Part shown: piece by piece, positions 252 through 9,126 of the stretch
Position numbering within the stretch: position 1 is the stretch's first letter
Layout: every line of letters begins with the position of its first letter
Assembly: GCA_018830645.1 (NCBI GenBank)
Contig: JAHJSA010000088.1
Location: forward strand, 186,001 to 250,000
Length of the DNA stretch: 64,000 nt
Direction: 5' to 3'
Source: Actinomycetota bacterium
Lineage (GTDB): Bacteria > Actinomycetota > Thermoleophilia > RBG-16-64-13
Translations under genes and position numbers: made by a program
The notes under the pieces: generated by a model
Database searches by the model: none
The model's input: only the letters and a program-made list of their open reading frames with translations
What the model was told of the DNA's origin: nothing

Positions 252-2549
252 TTACACCATCGTATCAGGTGGGTCTAAGCAGTCCGGGAGCGAGCGGCAC
301 AACCCACGCCAAGGACACCTTCCACAATGCGCGCCTGCCTCGGTCATCGCGGTGGACGAAGTTCGCTCGATGCTCTCACTGAGCGCGCGGCGCAGGCCCG
401 CGATGTCCCCGCCTGCGAAGGTCCGGACAACGGCCGCACGCGGCGACTCCAGGAACAGGAGCACCACCTCGACCTCCCGAGCTCCGGAGAGAAGGGCCGC
501 GAGTGCATAGAGCCGCACCTGGAGGTCGTACTGGGCCGCGATCTCCGCCACCTCGCGCCCTTCGAGGCTGTTGGTCTTGAAGTCGATGACGATCCAACGA
601 TCGGCCTCCTCCACCACGAGATCCATGAGACCCGTGACAGCGACACCGTCGTGGTCGAACAGGAACTGACGCTCCCGACGTGCCAAGGCATGAGATGCCG
701 TCCGTCGATAGGGAGAATCCCAGAAGGCGGCTGACAACTCGACCGCGCGGGCGGAGGCGGCGGCGTCGAGAGTCATGCCATCATCGCGCACCACCTCCTC
801 GACCTCAGATCGCAGCCGACGCCGGTCGACGGTCGCAAGGGATCCGACTCTCTCCAACACCCTGTGCACGACGATGCCCACGACCCGCGCGCCTGGCACC
901 GCCGCAGCCTCCGCCGGTTCCTCGACGGGTCGAGAGCGACCGCTCTCCCCGTGCCTGAAGTACTCGGGTGGAAGTCGGAGCACCCGCTCAAAATAGTAGG
1001 CCCGAGGGCACTCGGCGGCCCTGCTGAGAAGAGAGAAGCTCACCTGGCGCGGGCGCGGGGTTCCCACCTCGAGGGCGAGCGGCACGGGAGCCGGGGGGGC
1101 AAGCCTCGGCTCCACAGGGGCCTCGGCATCTCGAGCCGTCTCGGCTGTAGCTTCCACCACCATGGAGTACGGAACGAGGACCCCCTCCACCCATATGTCG
1201 AGATGATCGAGAGGGCGCTGGGGGAGCGCCGGCGGCATGTCCGGGCCCATGCCGAGCGCTTCGAGGACATCAGCGAGAGGAGAGCCCCCGGCCACGGGAC
1301 ACCCGGCCTTGGTCGATCCGACGAGGATGAGTCGATGCATAGCCCTCGTGGAGGCGACATAGTAGAGCCGCGCGACCTCATCACGGTCTCGGCTGCGCTC
1401 TTCCAGTTTGCACTCCTCGAACGGACCCAGCGTGATGTGATCGGTCTGGCTGCCGGTGGAAACACCGACGCGTAGAGCCGGGACGCCCGACCTGGCCTTC
1501 AGGAAGGCCCGATCGTGGTCGCGAGGCGCCGTTCCCATGCCGGGTACCACCACTACAGGGAACTCCAACCCCTTGGCCTGATGGATGGTCATCACACGGA
1601 CCACGTCGTCTTCTTCCGACAGGACGTGGGCGCCGCCCTCACGATCACCGGAGATATCGGTGCGAAGAGCGAGGTACTCCAGGAGGCCCCTGAGATCAGG
1701 ACCTTCCACCGATTCGAACTCATCGGCGATCCGCATGAGCTTACGCAGGTTCGCGAATCGCTGCGCCCCCTCGTCCGTTCCAAGCACCACGAGGTCGTAG
1801 TCGAAGGCAATCAGTGCCCCCTCGATGAGGTGCGCCAACCCTGGAGAGCCGAGGCGCGAACGAAGCGCGTTCACGGACGTGACTAGGTGAAGAAGCGCGC
1901 CTCGCGCGCGCGGCGGCACGTGCTCCAGCTCTCCCTTCTCGATCGTCTCCCACAAGAAGCGCTGCCCCTGCCTATCGGCCTGGTCGCGTAGCAGGAGGGC
2001 GACATCGTCGGAAAGCCCAAGAAGAGGAGAGCGCAGGACCGTGGCAAGGGCCGCGTCGTCCCTGGGGTTCAACAGGAGGCGCAGGAGCGCTTTCGTGTCG
2101 GCCACCTCGCTCCGGTCGAAGAAGCCCCGACCTTGCACCACATAACACGGCACCGATGCCGCCCGCAGGGCACGTTCGTACTCATGGACATGGGTGAGCG
2201 CTCGAAGGAGCACGACGACTTCGCGTGGACGGGTGCCTTCGCGAAGGAGGGACGACACTCGGGCCGCCACGACCGAGGCCTCGGCCTCGTGAGGAGAGGG
2301 CGCGGAGCCCGTCTCCGCATCGACGCCGAGGCAGGTGCCGCTGCGGTTGCCGTTGCGGTTGCCGCTGCGGTTGCCGTCTTCGTTGTCGGGGGTGCCCTCG
2401 GAACAGGAGCCGCCTTCCACCGCCACATCCTCCGCGGAAGCGACCACGAGCACACTCACGGCAGCCTGACCCTCGGCGGCACACCTCCCCCCATGACTCG
2501 ACACCGCCGACGGCGCGCCTTCGCCGGCGGCATCATCCGCACCGCCCAT
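252..2549 (-). CDS. addA: AddA-type helicase-nuclease, C-terminal part (downstream of an in-frame TGA)
   Basis: This is the second half of a UvrD/RecB-family helicase with a C-terminal PD-(D/E)XK nuclease, the AddA-like subunit of an exonuclease that processes double-strand breaks for recombination. Visible landmarks are helicase motif V (MTIHQAKGLEFPVVVVP), motif VI (YYVASTRAMHRL), a nuclease core with GLMDL near residue 640 and DFKT near 656-659, and a terminal Cys cluster C742, C745 and C751. It lies in the same frame as the 473-residue ORF upstream and is separated from it by one TGA at 2577-2579. The ATG at 2549 is only the first Met after that stop and has no good ribosome site. Residues 56-72 are a Gly/Asn/Arg repeat not expected in the family. 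It may be translated separately, by readthrough, or be the tail of a broken gene. Confidence 0.85.
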   Translation of the reverse strand: MGGADDAAGEGAPSAVSSHGGRCAAEGQAAVSVLVVASAEDVAVEGGSCSEGTPDNEDGNRSGNRNGNRSGTCLGVDAETGSAPSPHEAEASVVAARVSSLLREGTRPREVVVLLRALTHVHEYERALRAASVPCYVVQGRGFFDRSEVADTKALLRLLLNPRDDAALATVLRSPLLGLSDDVALLLRDQADRQGQRFLWETIEKGELEHVPPRARGALLHLVTSVNALRSRLGSPGLAHLIEGALIAFDYDLVVLGTDEGAQRFANLRKLMRIADEFESVEGPDLRGLLEYLALRTDISGDREGGAHVLSEEDDVVRVMTIHQAKGLEFPVVVVPGMGTAPRDHDRAFLKARSGVPALRVGVSTGSQTDHITLGPFEECKLEERSRDRDEVARLYYVASTRAMHRLILVGSTKAGCPVAGGSPLADVLEALGMGPDMPPALPQRPLDHLDIWVEGVLVPYSMVVEATAETARDAEAPVEPRLAPPAPVPLALEVGTPRPRQVSFSLLSRAAECPRAYYFERVLRLPPEYFRHGESGRSRPVEEPAEAAAVPGARVVGIVVHRVLERVGSLATVDRRRLRSEVEEVVRDDGMTLDAAASARAVELSAAFWDSPYRRTASHALARRERQFLFDHDGVAVTGLMDLVVEEADRWIVIDFKTNSLEGREVAEIAAQYDLQVRLYALAALLSGAREVEVVLLFLESPRAAVVRTFAGGDIAGLRRALSESIERTSSTAMTEAGAHCGRCPWRGLCRSLPDCLDPPDTMV

Positions 2550-2576: not shown

Positions 2577-3998
2577 TCATCCTGTTGGGAAAGCCTCCTC
2601 GGTGGAGACGACCTTCGGGAAGTCGGAGCCTAACAGGTGCTCGTGCCCGAAGATGGAGTTCAAAGCGTCGATGAGGGGCTTCCTGCTGCGGAAGTTCACC
2701 GAGAGGGAGCTCACCTCGACGTCGGAGTCGGTGCGGGCCTCGAAACCATCCTGCAGTTCGCGGAACACCCGTACGTCGGCTCCACGGAACCCGTAGATGC
2801 TCTGGTACGGATCTCCCACCGTAAGCGTGCCGCCGACGCCCAGACGGTCCAGCAGCTCGCACTGGAGCCGATTGGTGTCCTGGAACTCATCCACCATGAG
2901 CCACGAGCGGGCCGGGAAGGGTGCCCTTCCAGTGCGCAACACACGAAGGGTCAGAGCTTCCAGGTCGGCGAAGTCCAGCGCGCTTCGAGCGGACTTCAGC
3001 GCCCCATACTCCTGGTCGAATCGAACGAGCAGTCGTTGGGCGATGCCCCATACGTCGAGCAAGTAGTGCGCGCCGAGCAGGGATCGGAAGTCCCTCATGG
3101 CCGCCTTCAGATCCTCGAACAAGGGCTTGGTCTTGCCCACCGCGAGACTCGGCATGAGCGACGACACGATCTCCAGGTCACGCCATGTCGCCCCGGCCGA
3201 GGGCAGCCACTCGCGGCAGGCCGTGACGCGCTCCAAGTTCTTCTCGGCTGTGGCCGTCAGCTTGGCCCCCTGCAACCGGGCTAGGAGATCGTCGAGAGCT
3301 CGCTCGAGGGACTCTCGGCCGGACTGCACCTCGAGCGGCCGCGGCGGTGGGGTCAGACCCGGACCGGCATCCCCCCACACGCCTTCTTGGCGCAGCTGGT
3401 GGTAGAGCCGGGGGACGTCCCGCCTCAGTCGGTGCCCATGACGTGAGAGACATGCGAGCTCGGCTGAGGTGGCAGCGAGCACGACTTCGTCCCATGCGAC
3501 CCTACCCGCCTCGTGCTCCAGCACGGCCGCCTGTTCCTCGTCCAGAACCACGAAGTGAGGATCGACGCCGGCGGCCAACGCCTCCGAGCGGATGATGCGC
3601 GAGCACAGCGAGTGGATCGTACCGATGGGTGCAGACTCCACGTGCCCCACCAGATCAGCGTGGCCTTCCCGAAGCAGCGCTTCTCTGACCCGGTGCTTGA
3701 TCTCCCCGGCCGCCCTACGGGTGAAAGTCACCATGGGCACGTGCGCCGGGGAGAGCCCATCGAGGCCGACGGCGCGGAGGTACCGAGCCACCAGCAATGA
3801 TGTCTTCCCACTGCCGGCGGCCGCGGAGACGAACACGCGCGAGGCCCGGGAGCCCACGATCGTGCGCTGTTCCGGCGTGAGCTCGCGCACCGACTTCTCC
3901 AGGCCACCGGAGGAAGGAGCTGTTGCATCCTTCAGCGCCACGACACCGCCCGCTTCGGGACCCGGCACAGGGGCCCCAAGTCGCAGTAGGGGGGGCAT
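2577..3998 (-). CDS. addA: AddA-type helicase, N-terminal part (ends at a premature TGA)
   Basis: This is the N-terminal ATPase half of the same AddA-like protein. It carries Walker A (AGSGKT at about residues 61-66), motif Ia (TFTRRAAGEIKHRV), a Walker B/DExx box (LMVDEFQDTNR), motif III (VGDPYQSIYGFRGA) and motif IV (SVNFRSRKPL). It stops after ...EEAFPTG at a TGA, although the same frame continues for 765 codons with the missing motifs V and VI and the nuclease. It overlaps the end of addB by up to 67 bases. A start at the GTG at 3941 would reduce the overlap to about 10 bases and is equally plausible. On its own this half could bind ATP but would lack the motif VI arginine finger and the nuclease. 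Confidence 0.85.
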   Translation of the reverse strand: MPPLLRLGAPVPGPEAGGVVALKDATAPSSGGLEKSVRELTPEQRTIVGSRASRVFVSAAAGSGKTSLLVARYLRAVGLDGLSPAHVPMVTFTRRAAGEIKHRVREALLREGHADLVGHVESAPIGTIHSLCSRIIRSEALAAGVDPHFVVLDEEQAAVLEHEAGRVAWDEVVLAATSAELACLSRHGHRLRRDVPRLYHQLRQEGVWGDAGPGLTPPPRPLEVQSGRESLERALDDLLARLQGAKLTATAEKNLERVTACREWLPSAGATWRDLEIVSSLMPSLAVGKTKPLFEDLKAAMRDFRSLLGAHYLLDVWGIAQRLLVRFDQEYGALKSARSALDFADLEALTLRVLRTGRAPFPARSWLMVDEFQDTNRLQCELLDRLGVGGTLTVGDPYQSIYGFRGADVRVFRELQDGFEARTDSDVEVSSLSVNFRSRKPLIDALNSIFGHEHLLGSDFPKVVSTEEAFPTG

Positions 3999-6900
3999 TC
4001 GCGCAGAGGCTCGCCCGGGATATCGCCGGCGCGCATGCCCTCGGCCGCCTTCCTGGCCTCCGCGAGCGCCGACTCGATCTGCGCCTCGAAGGTCTCGCAG
4101 TCGACCCTCGCCGTGCGCGGGAACCAGGCGCCCGACATGCCGGACTCAGCCTCCAAGACCATACCGGCCGGTTTCCCCGCACCCATGGCGAAGTAGGCGC
4201 CGCCGGCTACGCCGATCTCCGGCAGAGCGGCCCTGACCGCCGCCATGTAGAGCGGCACCTGCAGCAGCCCTCTCTTCACGAGATCCGGCCCCCCCACGTC
4301 CGAGCCGTACTTGTAGTCGATCACGATCGCGGGGCCCGCGGGACCGAGCAGGTCGATGCGATCGACACGGCCGGTGAGCCGCACACCCCCCAGGTCGACG
4401 TCACCGCCTGGCAGCGACCACTCCGATTCGTAGAGCAGCGCCTCGCTGCCCGACCCGGCGTCGAACTCCAAGAGCGAGCGCACCCGCTGCAGCACGTCGC
4501 TCCCCATCAGTCGGAGTTCCGCCTCAGGCCACCTGCCGCGCATCTGCGCCACTTCTTCACGAAGGCTCTCGTCGGCCTTCTCCATCGCCCACGTCAGGAG
4601 CGAGGGGACCAGCCGCCTCTCGCCACGCTCACGGAGCGTGGAATACACGACGCTGAGCACGCTGTGGGCGATCCGGCCCCGATGCAGGCCGCCGAGGGTC
4701 TCCTCGATTGCCTCAAGGCCCACGACTCTTTCCGCGTACCAGCGGAACGGACAGTGCAGGTAGCTCTCGAGCTCCGTAGCACCGAAGACCTCTCTCTCGG
4801 CAAGGCGGGCGAGAACCGCCGGCTCGACGAGTCGGACGGGGCGACAGTCCCACGATGGAAGGCGCCGGACTCGCTCGGCGAGGTGTTCCTCCCGGGGTGA
4901 GAGTCGCGTGCGCGCGCACGCTCTCAGGTGCTCTCGCACCGAAGGAGCGTCACCGAGAGGATGGGTGATGTCGTCGAGTCTACGGTGTCGCGCAACGCCA
5001 AGGCCGGGCAGCAACCGCCGAGCCTCGTTCCAATAGGGTGACGTCGTGACCTCGGACCCGTCGTCCTCGGTGTCGCGCGCGCTCAAGTAGAGGAGTTGCC
5101 ACGGCCTCGAAAGAGCCAGCGCGAACAACGAGGCGTCGTCTGACTCAGGAGCGGCCTCGAGCACAGGCGAGCCGAACGCGTCGTTCAAGCCCCGACGGTC
5201 GCCAGGCGAGAGCAGGGACGACAGCTCCTCCACTCCGGGAAACTCACCGTCGGCCAGACCGGCTACGAACACCACATGGAAACGGCGGGCCCGTGCCCTC
5301 CGCACGCTCATGATCCTGACCACCCCGGACTCGTCTCCCCTCCCCAGGGAGACGGGGAGCCCGGCGATGAGCGAGAGCCGGCTCTCCAGATAGGCTCCGG
5401 GTCGATCCTCTTCGCGCGGAGTCGTGAGATGGCTCGAGGACGCAGTCGAGTAGGGAGGCTCTTCGAGCGCCACCCGGAGCGCGCGCAGCGCGGCCGCATC
5501 TTCTTCCAGCCCCGACGAACCCGGGGGACGACTCCCCAGCGCCGTGACGAGCATGGCGGCTGCCAACTCGACAAGGCCCGTGCCGCGGAAGTGCGCGGGT
5601 GCCCCATCCAGCCCGGCCGCGGCGTCACGCGCGAGAGCGAGGGCTCCGGGCATCTCTCGTTCGACCATCGTCAAGGCTCCCGCTCCCCGGTAGGCCCCGC
5701 TTGCGTGCAACTGCACCTCGAGGTGGTCCACAGACGAGTGGTGCGCAGGGTGATACGGGCTCCGCAGATAGTCGAGCACGTAGTCGGCCCGATCGTGGGC
5801 GGCGCCACGCACGGCCCGCAGCAAGATGTGACCAAGACCAGTGGCCCCGAAAAGCTCTGCACCATCGACGGCAAACGGTATGCCATACGCCGCGAAGACT
5901 GTGCGGGCCGCCCTTTGCCACGAGCCGACCCGTCGTACGAGCACGGCGATGTCGTCGGGCCGGACGCCCGACCGGAGCAACGAGACGACCTCGGCCGCCA
6001 CCAGCTCCAACTCGTTCCTACGCCCTGAGGAGAGCAAGAAGCGCACGCCTTCGACCGGCGGAGCGTTCGAGACGACGGCCTCGTCCTCTGACGAGGCCGC
6101 GGTGGCCTCGACCCACGACTGCGCTCCATCGACCAAGAAGGACTTCTCGAGATGGGCGACCCGGGGAGACGAGAACACGAACTCCTGCCGGCTCAACTCC
6201 ACGACCTCTTGGGCCGAACCCCGCAGGCGCTCGAACTCCAGCAGACCCTCGACCCTCGTCCGACGCGAAAGATCATGCACGAGGGCGACCGTCACCGGCA
6301 CGACACCCGCCAGGTCGAGCACGAGAGAACGCTGCGCTCGCGTGAACGACGTGAACCCATAGAAGGCGAGTGGCCGGCTCCAGCCGGCGACGGCCTGCCG
6401 CGCGTCGCGCTGGGCGCCGTGGCGATCCACCAGCCCCCAGACGGACAGGACGCGATGGAACTCCCCGACCAGGCCGGCCAGGTCGCGGGCGGTCGCACCG
6501 CCGCCTCGGCCTGCCCAGCGACCGAGCGCGGCGAGCACGACTTCCGGCGTCTCCCCCGTCTCCCCGAGTTCGTCGAGAACATCGATGAGCGCCTGCGCCG
6601 CTCCCGGGCGGGCTGCGATGTCACGTAGGGGGCCCACAAGCTCCCCGGCGAGCAACTCCCGGGCAAGCAGACTCAGCCGCAACCCGCCCAGCACGCCCGG
6701 CGCCCCGAGCGGCCTCAGCTCCGCAATGAGACCCTCCATCGTGGTGACGGGACGTTCGTCGTAGACCACTCCCGCCCTCTGCAACAACTCCGACGTAACA
6801 TCGGTCACATCGGGCAAGGTCGGTGCGACGATCAGGGGGCGCTCAGGGCGGCGCTCGATCCAACGATCGAGTACGTAACCGAGCTTCCCGGCATTCGGCG

Positions 6901-7006
6901 GACCGATGACCAACGTGAGGCCGGCGCTCCCCTTGGGCAGGCGGGCATCGCGGCCGCCACGGCGACCATCTCGTGCGCTGTCGATATGAGCCGGCTCGTA
7001 GGGCAT
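3932..7006 (-). CDS. addB: AddB-type PD-(D/E)XK nuclease / inactivated helicase subunit
   Basis: This 1024-residue protein is the partner of AddA. The N-terminus has a degenerate P-loop (GPPNAGKL at residues 35-42, with Leu where Ser or Thr is expected), consistent with an AddB-like non-motor subunit. Helicase-like motifs follow (LVRRVGSWQRAAR; IMSVRRARARRFHVVFVAGL). The C-terminal nuclease has GRVDRID and VIDYKYG. An iron-sulfur-type cysteine set is formed by the Cys in ESYLHCPFRWYAERV and by C1004, C1008 and C1014. The ATG lies 10 bases after a TACAAT -10 element, so the mRNA would be nearly leaderless. It is first in the addB-addA operon and divergent from pafBC. Confidence 0.88.
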   Translation of the reverse strand: MPYEPAHIDSARDGRRGGRDARLPKGSAGLTLVIGPPNAGKLGYVLDRWIERRPERPLIVAPTLPDVTDVTSELLQRAGVVYDERPVTTMEGLIAELRPLGAPGVLGGLRLSLLARELLAGELVGPLRDIAARPGAAQALIDVLDELGETGETPEVVLAALGRWAGRGGGATARDLAGLVGEFHRVLSVWGLVDRHGAQRDARQAVAGWSRPLAFYGFTSFTRAQRSLVLDLAGVVPVTVALVHDLSRRTRVEGLLEFERLRGSAQEVVELSRQEFVFSSPRVAHLEKSFLVDGAQSWVEATAASSEDEAVVSNAPPVEGVRFLLSSGRRNELELVAAEVVSLLRSGVRPDDIAVLVRRVGSWQRAARTVFAAYGIPFAVDGAELFGATGLGHILLRAVRGAAHDRADYVLDYLRSPYHPAHHSSVDHLEVQLHASGAYRGAGALTMVEREMPGALALARDAAAGLDGAPAHFRGTGLVELAAAMLVTALGSRPPGSSGLEEDAAALRALRVALEEPPYSTASSSHLTTPREEDRPGAYLESRLSLIAGLPVSLGRGDESGVVRIMSVRRARARRFHVVFVAGLADGEFPGVEELSSLLSPGDRRGLNDAFGSPVLEAAPESDDASLFALALSRPWQLLYLSARDTEDDGSEVTTSPYWNEARRLLPGLGVARHRRLDDITHPLGDAPSVREHLRACARTRLSPREEHLAERVRRLPSWDCRPVRLVEPAVLARLAEREVFGATELESYLHCPFRWYAERVVGLEAIEETLGGLHRGRIAHSVLSVVYSTLRERGERRLVPSLLTWAMEKADESLREEVAQMRGRWPEAELRLMGSDVLQRVRSLLEFDAGSGSEALLYESEWSLPGGDVDLGGVRLTGRVDRIDLLGPAGPAIVIDYKYGSDVGGPDLVKRGLLQVPLYMAAVRAALPEIGVAGGAYFAMGAGKPAGMVLEAESGMSGAWFPRTARVDCETFEAQIESALAEARKAAEGMRAGDIPGEPLRECPPYCDLGPLCRVPKRAVSWR

Positions 7007-7016
7007 CTCGCCACGG

Positions 7017-7039
7017 ATTGTAGCCTACGCCACGGACAG
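7017..7039 (-). promoter_or_regulatory. PafBC-dependent (RecA-NDp-like) promoter of addB
   Basis: On the minus strand the spacer between addB and pafB reads CTGTCCGTG, exactly 8 bases, then TACAAT, then 10 bases to the addB ATG. The published RecA-NDp motif of actinobacteria (bound by PafBC) is TTGTCRGTG-N8-TAnnnT. The match keeps the spacing, the TAnnnT and seven of the nine upstream positions; the mismatches are the first T and the R. The gene divergent from it encodes PafB. That PafBC acts here is inferred. Confidence 0.7.
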
Positions 7040-7106
7040 ACCGGCCCACCCCGCCCCTCGTCAACGAGGCGCTGCCTGAACGATGGTCGAAGCAGGAGGC
7101 GTGTTG

Positions 7107-7112
7107 TACTCT
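7107..7112 (+). promoter_or_regulatory. Candidate -10 element for pafBC, giving a leaderless mRNA
   Basis: TACTCT lies 6 bases before the ATG at 7119, so transcription would start at or next to the start codon. No clear -35 hexamer is seen. The GGAGG at 7095-7099 is too far from this ATG to serve as its ribosome site. Confidence 0.4.
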
Positions 7113-7118
7113 ACCAAC

Positions 7119-8135
7119 ATGCCCCGTGACGACGACAAACTCGTGCGCCAGCTCTCCCTGGTCTCCTTCCTACTCACCCAGCGGCGCCCCGTCACCGCGC
7201 GGCACGTGCACGACTGCGTCGAAGGATACGCTCAGATGTCGGACACCACCTTCGTGCGGCGATTCTACGACGACCGAGCCGACCTGCTACAGGGGGGCAT
7301 CCGGGTGGAAGCCGCGGAGGACGAAGACGGCGAGAGCTACTTCCTACCCGACGAGAACTACCGTCTGCCCGATCTCGAGCTTCAAGCGGAAGAGCTGCGC
7401 GCTCTGGCCGTGGCCCTGACTCTGCTCGAGGGCCGCTTCGCCTACGCCCGGCCACTGCGCCTCGCCCTCGTGAACCTCACTCACGGCCATCCAGACCCGA
7501 GTTCGGTCGAGATGGAGCGGGTCGCGGTCAGCCTCGAGCCGGACGAGGAGGCCCGTACCTCCGGCCAGGCCCTAGCCCGCCTCGACGATGCCATCGCCCG
7601 CGGCAAGACGGTGCGATTCGCCTACCGCACCAGCACGTCCGACCACACGCACGAGCGGACCCTCGACCCCTACAGCCTGTTCCGCACGGGCGGCCACTGG
7701 TACGCAGCCGGGCTCGACCACGACCGTCAAGCGGTGCGCACGTTCCGCCTCAGCCGCATCTCGGGTGCGGTGCGGTTCTCGACGAAGCGCCCACGCGACT
7801 TCTCACCGCCCCCTGAGCTGGATCTTTCGGAGTTCCGGCTACGCCCCCCTTGGCAGTTGGGAGACATCGCCGGCGAGGCGACGATCCGGGTGGACGACGA
7901 ACTGGCCTGGTGGGTCACCCGCACGTATCCCGACGTAGAGACGCTGCCCGAGGTCGCTCCCGCGGGGGACTCCCAGGACGTCGCCTCCACGGTGTTCCGC
8001 ACCACGTACGCCGACGCCGACGCGCTGATCACGTGGGTCTTGGGCATGGGGCGCCGCGCCGAGCTCCTGGAGCCGCCGCACCTCAGGGAGGCAGTGGCTA
8101 TGAAGCTGCGGCGTCTGGAGGACGCCCATGTCTAA
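7119..8135 (+). CDS. pafB: WYL-domain transcriptional regulator, PafB-like
   Basis: This cytoplasmic regulator has an N-terminal helix-turn-helix segment (KLVRQLSLVSFLLTQRRPVTARHV) and a WYL-type sensor (around RFAYRTSTSDHTHERTLDPYSLFRTGGHWYAAGLD). That core has the usual Arg-rich strand and the ..HWYAAG.. form. Family knowledge: PafB with PafC activates LexA-independent DNA-damage genes in actinobacteria. The start was chosen at the ATG in MPRDDDK, which leaves a normal 8-residue lead before the HTH; the frame is open back to 7083. It overlaps pafC by 8 bases. No Pup-proteasome genes are in the window, so the assignment rests on the tandem WYL pair and the divergent addAB genes. Confidence 0.82.
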   Translation: MPRDDDKLVRQLSLVSFLLTQRRPVTARHVHDCVEGYAQMSDTTFVRRFYDDRADLLQGGIRVEAAEDEDGESYFLPDENYRLPDLELQAEELRALAVALTLLEGRFAYARPLRLALVNLTHGHPDPSSVEMERVAVSLEPDEEARTSGQALARLDDAIARGKTVRFAYRTSTSDHTHERTLDPYSLFRTGGHWYAAGLDHDRQAVRTFRLSRISGAVRFSTKRPRDFSPPPELDLSEFRLRPPWQLGDIAGEATIRVDDELAWWVTRTYPDVETLPEVAPAGDSQDVASTVFRTTYADADALITWVLGMGRRAELLEPPHLREAVAMKLRRLEDAHV

Positions 8136-9126
8136 CGGGCCCATACCTCCGGAGCGTCTCGCCCGAGCCCTCACGCTTCTCAGCTACCTCCTCGCCGAGG
8201 ACCGCGGGGAAGTGGTGTCACTGGTGACGCTCTGCCACGACCTGGGCATCAGCAAGAAAGAGGTGAGTGACGACCTGCAGCTTCTGAACCTGGTGAACCA
8301 CGGGGGCGGCACCTACGTCATCACAGGCGAGATAGTGGGCGACCAGGTGCATGTGACCCGCGAGCCCACTGGTGAGGCAATGGCCCGACCCGCCCGCCTC
8401 TCGCCTCTCATGGCTCGGGCGCTTCTTCTCACGGTCGATCTCATCGGTGAGCAATTGCCCGTGGACAGCCGGCGATCCCTCGCCTCGGCCGGGGAGAAGA
8501 TACGGAAGCTCATCGATGGCACCGAGCTGCGAGGAGTGGTGAACGTAGGGGAGCGCCGGGAAGGCGAGTCGGACGTTGTGCGCGTCATCAACCGCGCCCT
8601 GCAAGACAACCTCCTGGTCGAGATCGAGTACTACACTCCCTCAAGAGACCGCCTCAGCACACGCGCGATCGAGCCGTACCTGCTGTTCCAGTCGAAGGAC
8701 GCCTGGTATCTCGAGGCGTTCTGCCTCTCGGCTGACGCGCAGCGCACGTTCAGACTCGACCTGATCCGATCTGCGTCGCTGGAGGGTAGCTCGTTCGTTC
8801 CGAGAGCCGACGTCGATCTGGTCTACCGAAGAGCGGGACCCCTCTCCGTGCCTCCGCGACAGGCACAGTGGGCCACGGTCCGCTTCCCCGCCGGCCGTCG
8901 TAGGTCGCTGGAGGAACAGGGGCTCGAAGTCACGCCTATGCAGGACGGCGGCATCCAGGCACGAATCCCTTATTTAGATGAGCGTTGGCTCATTCGAGAG
9001 GTATTGAAGTATGCGGGCGACGCGTCGATCGAGTCACCCGAGGCCCTTCGCGAGCGGATGGCCGAGGAGACACGGGCGATCGCGGCCACGTACGAGAAAG
9101 CCCGACCCGTAAGGAGAACGGAATGA
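8128..9126 (+). CDS. pafC: WYL-domain transcriptional regulator, PafC-like
   Basis: This second WYL-family regulator (332 residues) has an N-terminal winged-helix region (ALTLLSYLLAEDRGEVVSLVTLCHDLGISKKEVSDDLQLL) and a WYL core (VEIEYYTPSRDRLSTRAIEPYLLFQSKDAWYLEAFC). GGAG at 8117-8120 sits 7 bases before the ATG. It overlaps pafB by 8 bases and its stop overlaps the next start (ATGA), so the three genes are probably co-translated. PafB and PafC work as a heterodimer in other actinobacteria, which fits this order. Confidence 0.82.
   Translation: MSNGPIPPERLARALTLLSYLLAEDRGEVVSLVTLCHDLGISKKEVSDDLQLLNLVNHGGGTYVITGEIVGDQVHVTREPTGEAMARPARLSPLMARALLLTVDLIGEQLPVDSRRSLASAGEKIRKLIDGTELRGVVNVGERREGESDVVRVINRALQDNLLVEIEYYTPSRDRLSTRAIEPYLLFQSKDAWYLEAFCLSADAQRTFRLDLIRSASLEGSSFVPRADVDLVYRRAGPLSVPPRQAQWATVRFPAGRRRSLEEQGLEVTPMQDGGIQARIPYLDERWLIREVLKYAGDASIESPEALRERMAEETRAIAATYEKARPVRRTE

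Follow-up and report, generated by a model that had tools for sequence, protein, structure and literature searches.

The closest described counterpart of the locus analyzed here is the mycobacterial PafBC regulon, whose promoters, reportedly delineated by Gamulin in 2004 and by Mueller in 2018, follow the RecA-NDp pattern TGTCRG-N10-TANNNT. PafBC takes its name from its proximity to the Pup-proteasome system and has been studied in that setting; most mapping of its regulon comes from mycobacteria. In its published forms, the PafBC box reads TGTCGG, TGTCAG or TGTCAC, followed by N10-TANNNT (PMC8151990). Mycobacterial PafBC is activated by single-stranded DNA (ssDNA) at its WYL domains, and RNA polymerase carrying the housekeeping sigma factor then uses the -26 box in lieu of a -35 element (PMC11804915).

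The window, a stretch of 64,000 nucleotides from a member of the Thermoleophilia (assembly GCA_018830645.1, contig JAHJSA010000088.1, positions 186,001 to 250,000), carries a pafB-pafC operon divergent to addB. A preliminary description of this sequence placed a PafBC-type promoter on the addB side of the shared spacer, matching TTGTCRGTG-N8-TANNNT apart from two positions, and regarded regulator and nuclease as a self-contained damage-response locus outside a Pup-proteasome context. The comparative analysis reported here makes it very likely that the addB side acts as a PafBC-dependent promoter, that the pafBC side has its own box-less promoter, and that addBA is one target of a wider repair regulon.

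Results

Organization of the divergent locus

The spacer is flanked by the ATG codons of the addB-like ORF (7006, leftward) and of pafB (7119, rightward), and its features are collected in Table 1. An alternative in-frame pafB ATG exists at 7083, but the start is placed at 7119 because relatives agree on this position and a conserved -10 element sits six bases upstream of it. The leftward genes have the composition of AddAB, with an AddB bearing a C-terminal nuclease domain adjacent to an AddA with UvrD helicase and nuclease domains. A single in-frame TGA (2577-2579, minus strand) splits the window addA in a linker of variable sequence that joins the helicase core to the C-terminal helicase/nuclease region; addA is one intact ORF in a genome of the same genus (G001), and the stop may be either an assembly error or a strain mutation. 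On the opposite side, pafB and pafC share 8 nt (8128-8135). A minority of family genomes keep the two genes separate; in most relatives they are fused into a single ORF of about 700 codons.

Table 1. Coordinates of the features of the pafBC-addBA locus in the window.
Feature	Position	Strand	Remarks
Spacer between addB-like gene and pafB	7007-7118		Divergent genes on either side
PafBC-type -26 box TGTCCG of addB promoter	7033..7038	-	YGTCYG conserved 9-10 nt from -10
Extended form of addB box, GTCTGTCCG	7041-7033	-	
addB promoter -10 element TACAAT	7017..7022	-	TANNAT (most often TACAAT) conserved in family, 4-10 nt from addB start
addB-like gene, nuclease subunit with C-terminal PD-(D/E)XK domain	3932..7006	-	PDDEXK_1 3.1e-31; addB_Gpos 3.8e-14
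addA part 1, UvrD-type helicase core, stops at in-frame TGA	2577..3998	-	
addA part 2, UvrD_C and PD-(D/E)XK nuclease	252..2549	-	
pafB promoter -10 element TACTCT	7107..7112	+	Six bases 5' of ATG; leaderless; TANTCT-type in most family members
pafB, WYL and WCX domains	7119..8135	+	WYL 6.3e-22; WCX 1.3e-12
pafC, HTH_PafC, WYL and WCX domains	8128..9126	+	HTH_PafC 4.8e-10

The best PDB matches of PafB and PafC are to their own chains (1.1e-22 and 1.5e-22) in 7p5x, the M. smegmatis PafBC initiation complex. WYL and WCX domains occur in both proteins; HTH_PafC scores above its cut-off in PafC, and the HTH of PafB is visible by alignment only. As adjacent PafB and PafC homologues of HTH-WYL-WCX architecture, they belong to WYL class A and, by sequence, the regulator pair is PafB/PafC, the identity first given to the divergent operon. 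The four residues needed for ssDNA sensing in M. smegmatis PafB (R181, Y196, R204 and R208; PMC11804915) are all identical in the window PafB, in an alignment whose numbering was matched via residue spacing.

Recognition-helix residues Arg44 and Arg48 of A. aurescens PafB have been reported as strictly conserved, which is a trait of the taxa sampled and not a definition of the family, and the M. smegmatis equivalent of Arg48 has been mutated together with a neighbouring residue, yielding a non-functional double mutant (PMC6789036). Arg44 is retained in 57 of 59 Thermoleophilia-type PafBs (Lys in 2). Arg48 is missing in all 59, and retained in 5/5 PafBs from other Actinobacteria, while Met45 and Lys50 are both replaced by Arg in 59/59. 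With Arg48 absent, the window PafB is classed as a variant. The altered helix parallels an altered box, described below, as a correlation between two groups and not as proof that those residues read that base. A literature search outside subscription sources found no report joining PafBC with the Thermoleophilia.

The addB promoter element

A second reading of the sequence returns the element, and the gene order, as first described: on the minus strand, TGTCCGTG (7038-7031) is followed by N8, TACAAT (7022-7017), 10 nt and the addB ATG (7006), with the spacer up to the addB start reading GGTCTGTCCGTGGCGTAGGCTACAATCCGTGGCGAG-ATG. In core form, the site is TGTCCG-N10-TACAAT (minus strand, 7038-7017). 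The two mismatches to TTGTCRGTG-N8-TANNNT are indeed present (first T to C, and R to C); the latter is, however, a rule of the lineage, and the GTG tail of the motif is not conserved. With two mismatches allowed, this motif has 6 matches in the window against 2.2 expected, and the addB match, taken alone, is weak; it is conservation that lifts it above chance. When the window is scored with a weight matrix derived from 14 promoters that do not include addB, the addB site ranks first at 23.8 bits, a result that is partly circular because the matrix sites were gathered with a pattern first seen at addB; the next window site reaches 12.7 bits with the same matrix, and the best of 30 shuffled windows 18.5. 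The site shares with RecA-NDp promoters the 10-nt spacing between box and -10 (9 nt in one family member) and the TANNNT -10 element, but it carries C, as do most family sites, where the box of those promoters has a purine as its fifth base. On these letters, it is a RecA-NDp-like variant and not a strict RecA-NDp member.

Conservation of the spacer

PafB matches were found in 59/61 genomes, nearly always one per genome. A separate scan of named genomes gave matches with the PafB alignment and none with a single-sequence AddB query. Wherever a genome of the window's own family has a PafB match on a long enough contig, addB is divergent to pafB(C), and every complete pafB-addB spacer read in the family (16 genomes) contains YGTCYG-N9/10-TANNAT. 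In these spacers the box is TGTCCG or CGTCCG; a -10, usually TACAAT or TAGAAT, follows after ten bases, and the addB start 4-10 bases further on, with single departures in a nine-base gap (G005), TAGCAT (G012) and CGTCTG (G008). Conservation around the box extends to TTTC upstream and to a G two bases before the -10. In a second Thermoleophilia family, pafBC is also divergent to addBA, and TTCCGTCCG-N10-TANNAT was found in 4/4 spacers examined. Some members of this second family (three loci) have a small conserved ORF (MKLTSFLYRMARLSRD...) between pafBC and addB. Within the DNA examined, addBA is not adjacent to pafBC in most other Thermoleophilia families. The reading of the addB site as a PafBC-type promoter, proposed in the preliminary description, is well supported, and the site is conserved over two families.

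The pafB side of the spacer has a different make-up. Its -10 element, located six bases before the ATG, is TACTCT in the window and TAGTCT in most relatives, and no box faces pafB in the spacer, so that autoregulation through a YGTCCG box is not indicated.

Distribution of the box across genomes

The footprinting pattern used for genome searches was derived first from the window addB site. Across 18 family genomes, the pattern TGTCCG-N10-TANAAT has 27 matches and its reversed control 1; for YGTCCG-N10-TANAAT the corresponding counts are 59 and 9. From the downstream genes, about 34 of these 59 sites precede addB (13), uvrA (6), a YhaM-like exoribonuclease gene (6), rpsF-ssb (5), coaE-transglycosylase-uvrB (2) and nrdR (2). 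The window genome has exactly three such sites, located 5' of addB, uvrA and yhaM. Among 17 promoters, the informative positions outside the search pattern are T, T and C before the box, the G two bases before the -10, and a C after it.

When the -10 is relaxed to TANNNT, 54 sites are found in the window genome against 23 in the control, and 46 against 18 in a congener. Promoters that carry the box in both genomes are those of addB, uvrA, yhaM, recQ, recJ, nrdR, lexA and a dnaE; genes for a PcrA/UvrD helicase, an SbcD/Mre11-like nuclease and an MrfA-type DEAH helicase; yebC, followed by ruvC and ruvB (yebC-ruvCAB); and genes for a HAD hydrolase, a Se/S-carrier-like protein and a secreted protein. 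The identities of the genes behind these shared boxes were confirmed, but some of the sites may represent inherited background, since the two congeners have much non-coding sequence in common. Shared boxes inside conserved coding sequence, of which there are at least three (pgsA, mcsB and locus L292), or in ambiguous context (loci L287 and L289) were excluded as targets. A HAD-type hydrolase gene carries the box in several genera (four loci), and may be a new regulon member.

Besides addB, the box is present at no fewer than eleven other repair or nucleic-acid genes of the window genome, lexA included. These sites predict a repair regulon that spans the genome, is largely independent of LexA and counts the addBA operon among its targets; the notion of a self-contained locus is too narrow and is not supported. 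A lack of motif enrichment before repair genes had been proposed as a refutation, and it did not occur: the lineage variant is enriched there. The exact mycobacterial motif is not enriched (2 matches in the window genome against 1 in the control), and recA, which lies mid-operon with no box directly upstream, was rejected as a direct target. The uvrB operon lacks the box in the window genome and in G001; the corresponding coaE-transglycosylase-uvrB operon has it in two family genomes (G005 and G013).

Beyond the family, a TANNAT search of 16 genomes from other families yielded 19 matches against 10 in the control, in which lexA, ribonucleotide reductase and a guaB-like gene are suggestive candidates only. 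In two of these other families, TGTCCG-N10-TA(G/C)GAT lies shortly before the start of the guaB-like gene.

LexA and the Pup ligase

LexA is present in 6/6 family genomes tested. Perfect SOS boxes beside the PafBC-type box occur only at lexA and dnaE (two loci each), and no SOS box was found at addB or at most other box-bearing targets. The box at lexA suggests that PafBC may act on the LexA system in the window's genus.

The Pup ligase (PF03136) was not found in the window genome, and the counts were 0/6 for family genomes and 0/149 for genomes of the class, with Corynebacterium glutamicum detected as a positive control. Because no Pup ligase was found, PafBC works outside a Pup context across the class, as far as the PF03136 model sees, and the earlier placement of the locus outside that context holds; without a Pup ligase gene, it is not a Pup-proteasome-associated pafBC locus.

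Discussion

In the model that we consider very likely, the addB promoter would consist of YGTCCG centred near -26, 10 nt and TACAAT, with a nearly leaderless addBA transcript, and the pafBC side would use a housekeeping-type leaderless promoter with no box. By analogy with mycobacteria, ssDNA derived from damage would bind the WYL domains of PafB and PafC, and the activated heterodimer would use the -26 box to bring RNA polymerase with its housekeeping sigma factor to promoters that lack a proper -35, driving addBA and the wider regulon. PafBC itself, with a promoter that has no box, is probably made constitutively; PafBC levels are constant in M. smegmatis (PMC5656591), which fits the box-less pafB side. 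The addBA operon is an expected kind of target, because M. smegmatis PafBC has RecBCD and AdnAB among its targets (PMC8223512). Furthermore, AddAB-type enzymes resect ends to ssDNA, and the pafBC-addBA linkage could hence give positive feedback, although ssDNA made by AddAB acting back on PafBC is speculation.

The YGTCCG box could instead be bound by an activator other than PafBC that governs a shared repair regulon, with pafBC a mere neighbour. The box is one base off its mycobacterial form, the PafB recognition helix is altered, and ClgR, according to a report cited in PMC5656591, was once placed at the mycobacterial P1 promoter motif. Such an activator is made improbable by the exact PafBC spacing, with 10 nt between box end and -10, by similar kinds of target genes, by the fact that two families have pafBC linked to an addB promoter with the box, and by the finding of just one PafB match in nearly every relative's genome. 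We give still less credence to the box as part of a constitutive promoter, an extended -10 or an unusual sigma element common to some repair genes. Such a promoter would account for the G two bases before the -10, which looks like an extended -10, and for the few box-bearing promoters of non-repair genes, but the 10-nt gap between box and -10 compares poorly with the 16-18 nt expected for a -35, and box enrichment centres on repair genes. The least credible proposal is that pafBC serves only the adjoining addAB: its divergent linkage is conserved, yet the same box is found at about a dozen other repair promoters in the genome. The favoured reading is a PafBC-dependent addB promoter within a wider regulon.

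A broader interpretation, slightly less likely than not, can be advanced tentatively. Class-wide, and without Pup, Thermoleophilia PafBC and its box would have been rewired as a pair, through loss of Arg48 and gain of Arg at Met45 and Lys50 on the one hand, and a change from TGTCRG to (TTTC)YGTCCG on the other; the addBA linkage would be a feedback unit, and PafBC a general actinobacterial damage activator for which the Pup association is not essential. A whole actinobacterial class seems to use PafBC as a main damage response without a Pup ligase, which raises the question of how the response is ended when the proteasome does not remove RecA and other targets. The lineage has a predictable, slightly different promoter code, and offers a natural specificity variant for asking which PafB residues read the -26 box. 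In some lineages, the suggested control of lexA by PafBC would join both damage responses.

The arrangement described here is most similar to the mycobacterial PafBC regulon, with which it has in common a heterodimeric HTH-WYL-WCX regulator, a non-palindromic box at a fixed distance of 10 nt from a TANNNT -10, and mostly LexA-independent repair targets that include uvrA, ruvC and end-resection nucleases. It differs from it in a box with C for the purine, a degenerate first base and an upstream TTTC, in a PafB recognition helix without Arg48, in the absence of a Pup ligase, and in a regulon where recA is not directly behind a box and lexA, in the window's genus, is itself box-bearing. The PafB-PafC fusion of most relatives of the window resembles the fused PafBC of A. 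aurescens (PDB 6sj9), whereas the window's genus has two overlapping genes, and the recognition helix is different. With DriD and other homodimeric WYL damage activators, the system shares a WYL-domain, ssDNA-sensing type of activator of damage genes, but it relies on a PafB/PafC pair and a non-palindromic box. Lastly, as with mycobacterial AdnAB and RecBCD (PMC8223512), an end-resection helicase-nuclease is placed in the predicted PafBC regulon; the enzyme of the window is, however, of the AddAB type, and is encoded as the divergent neighbour of its regulator.
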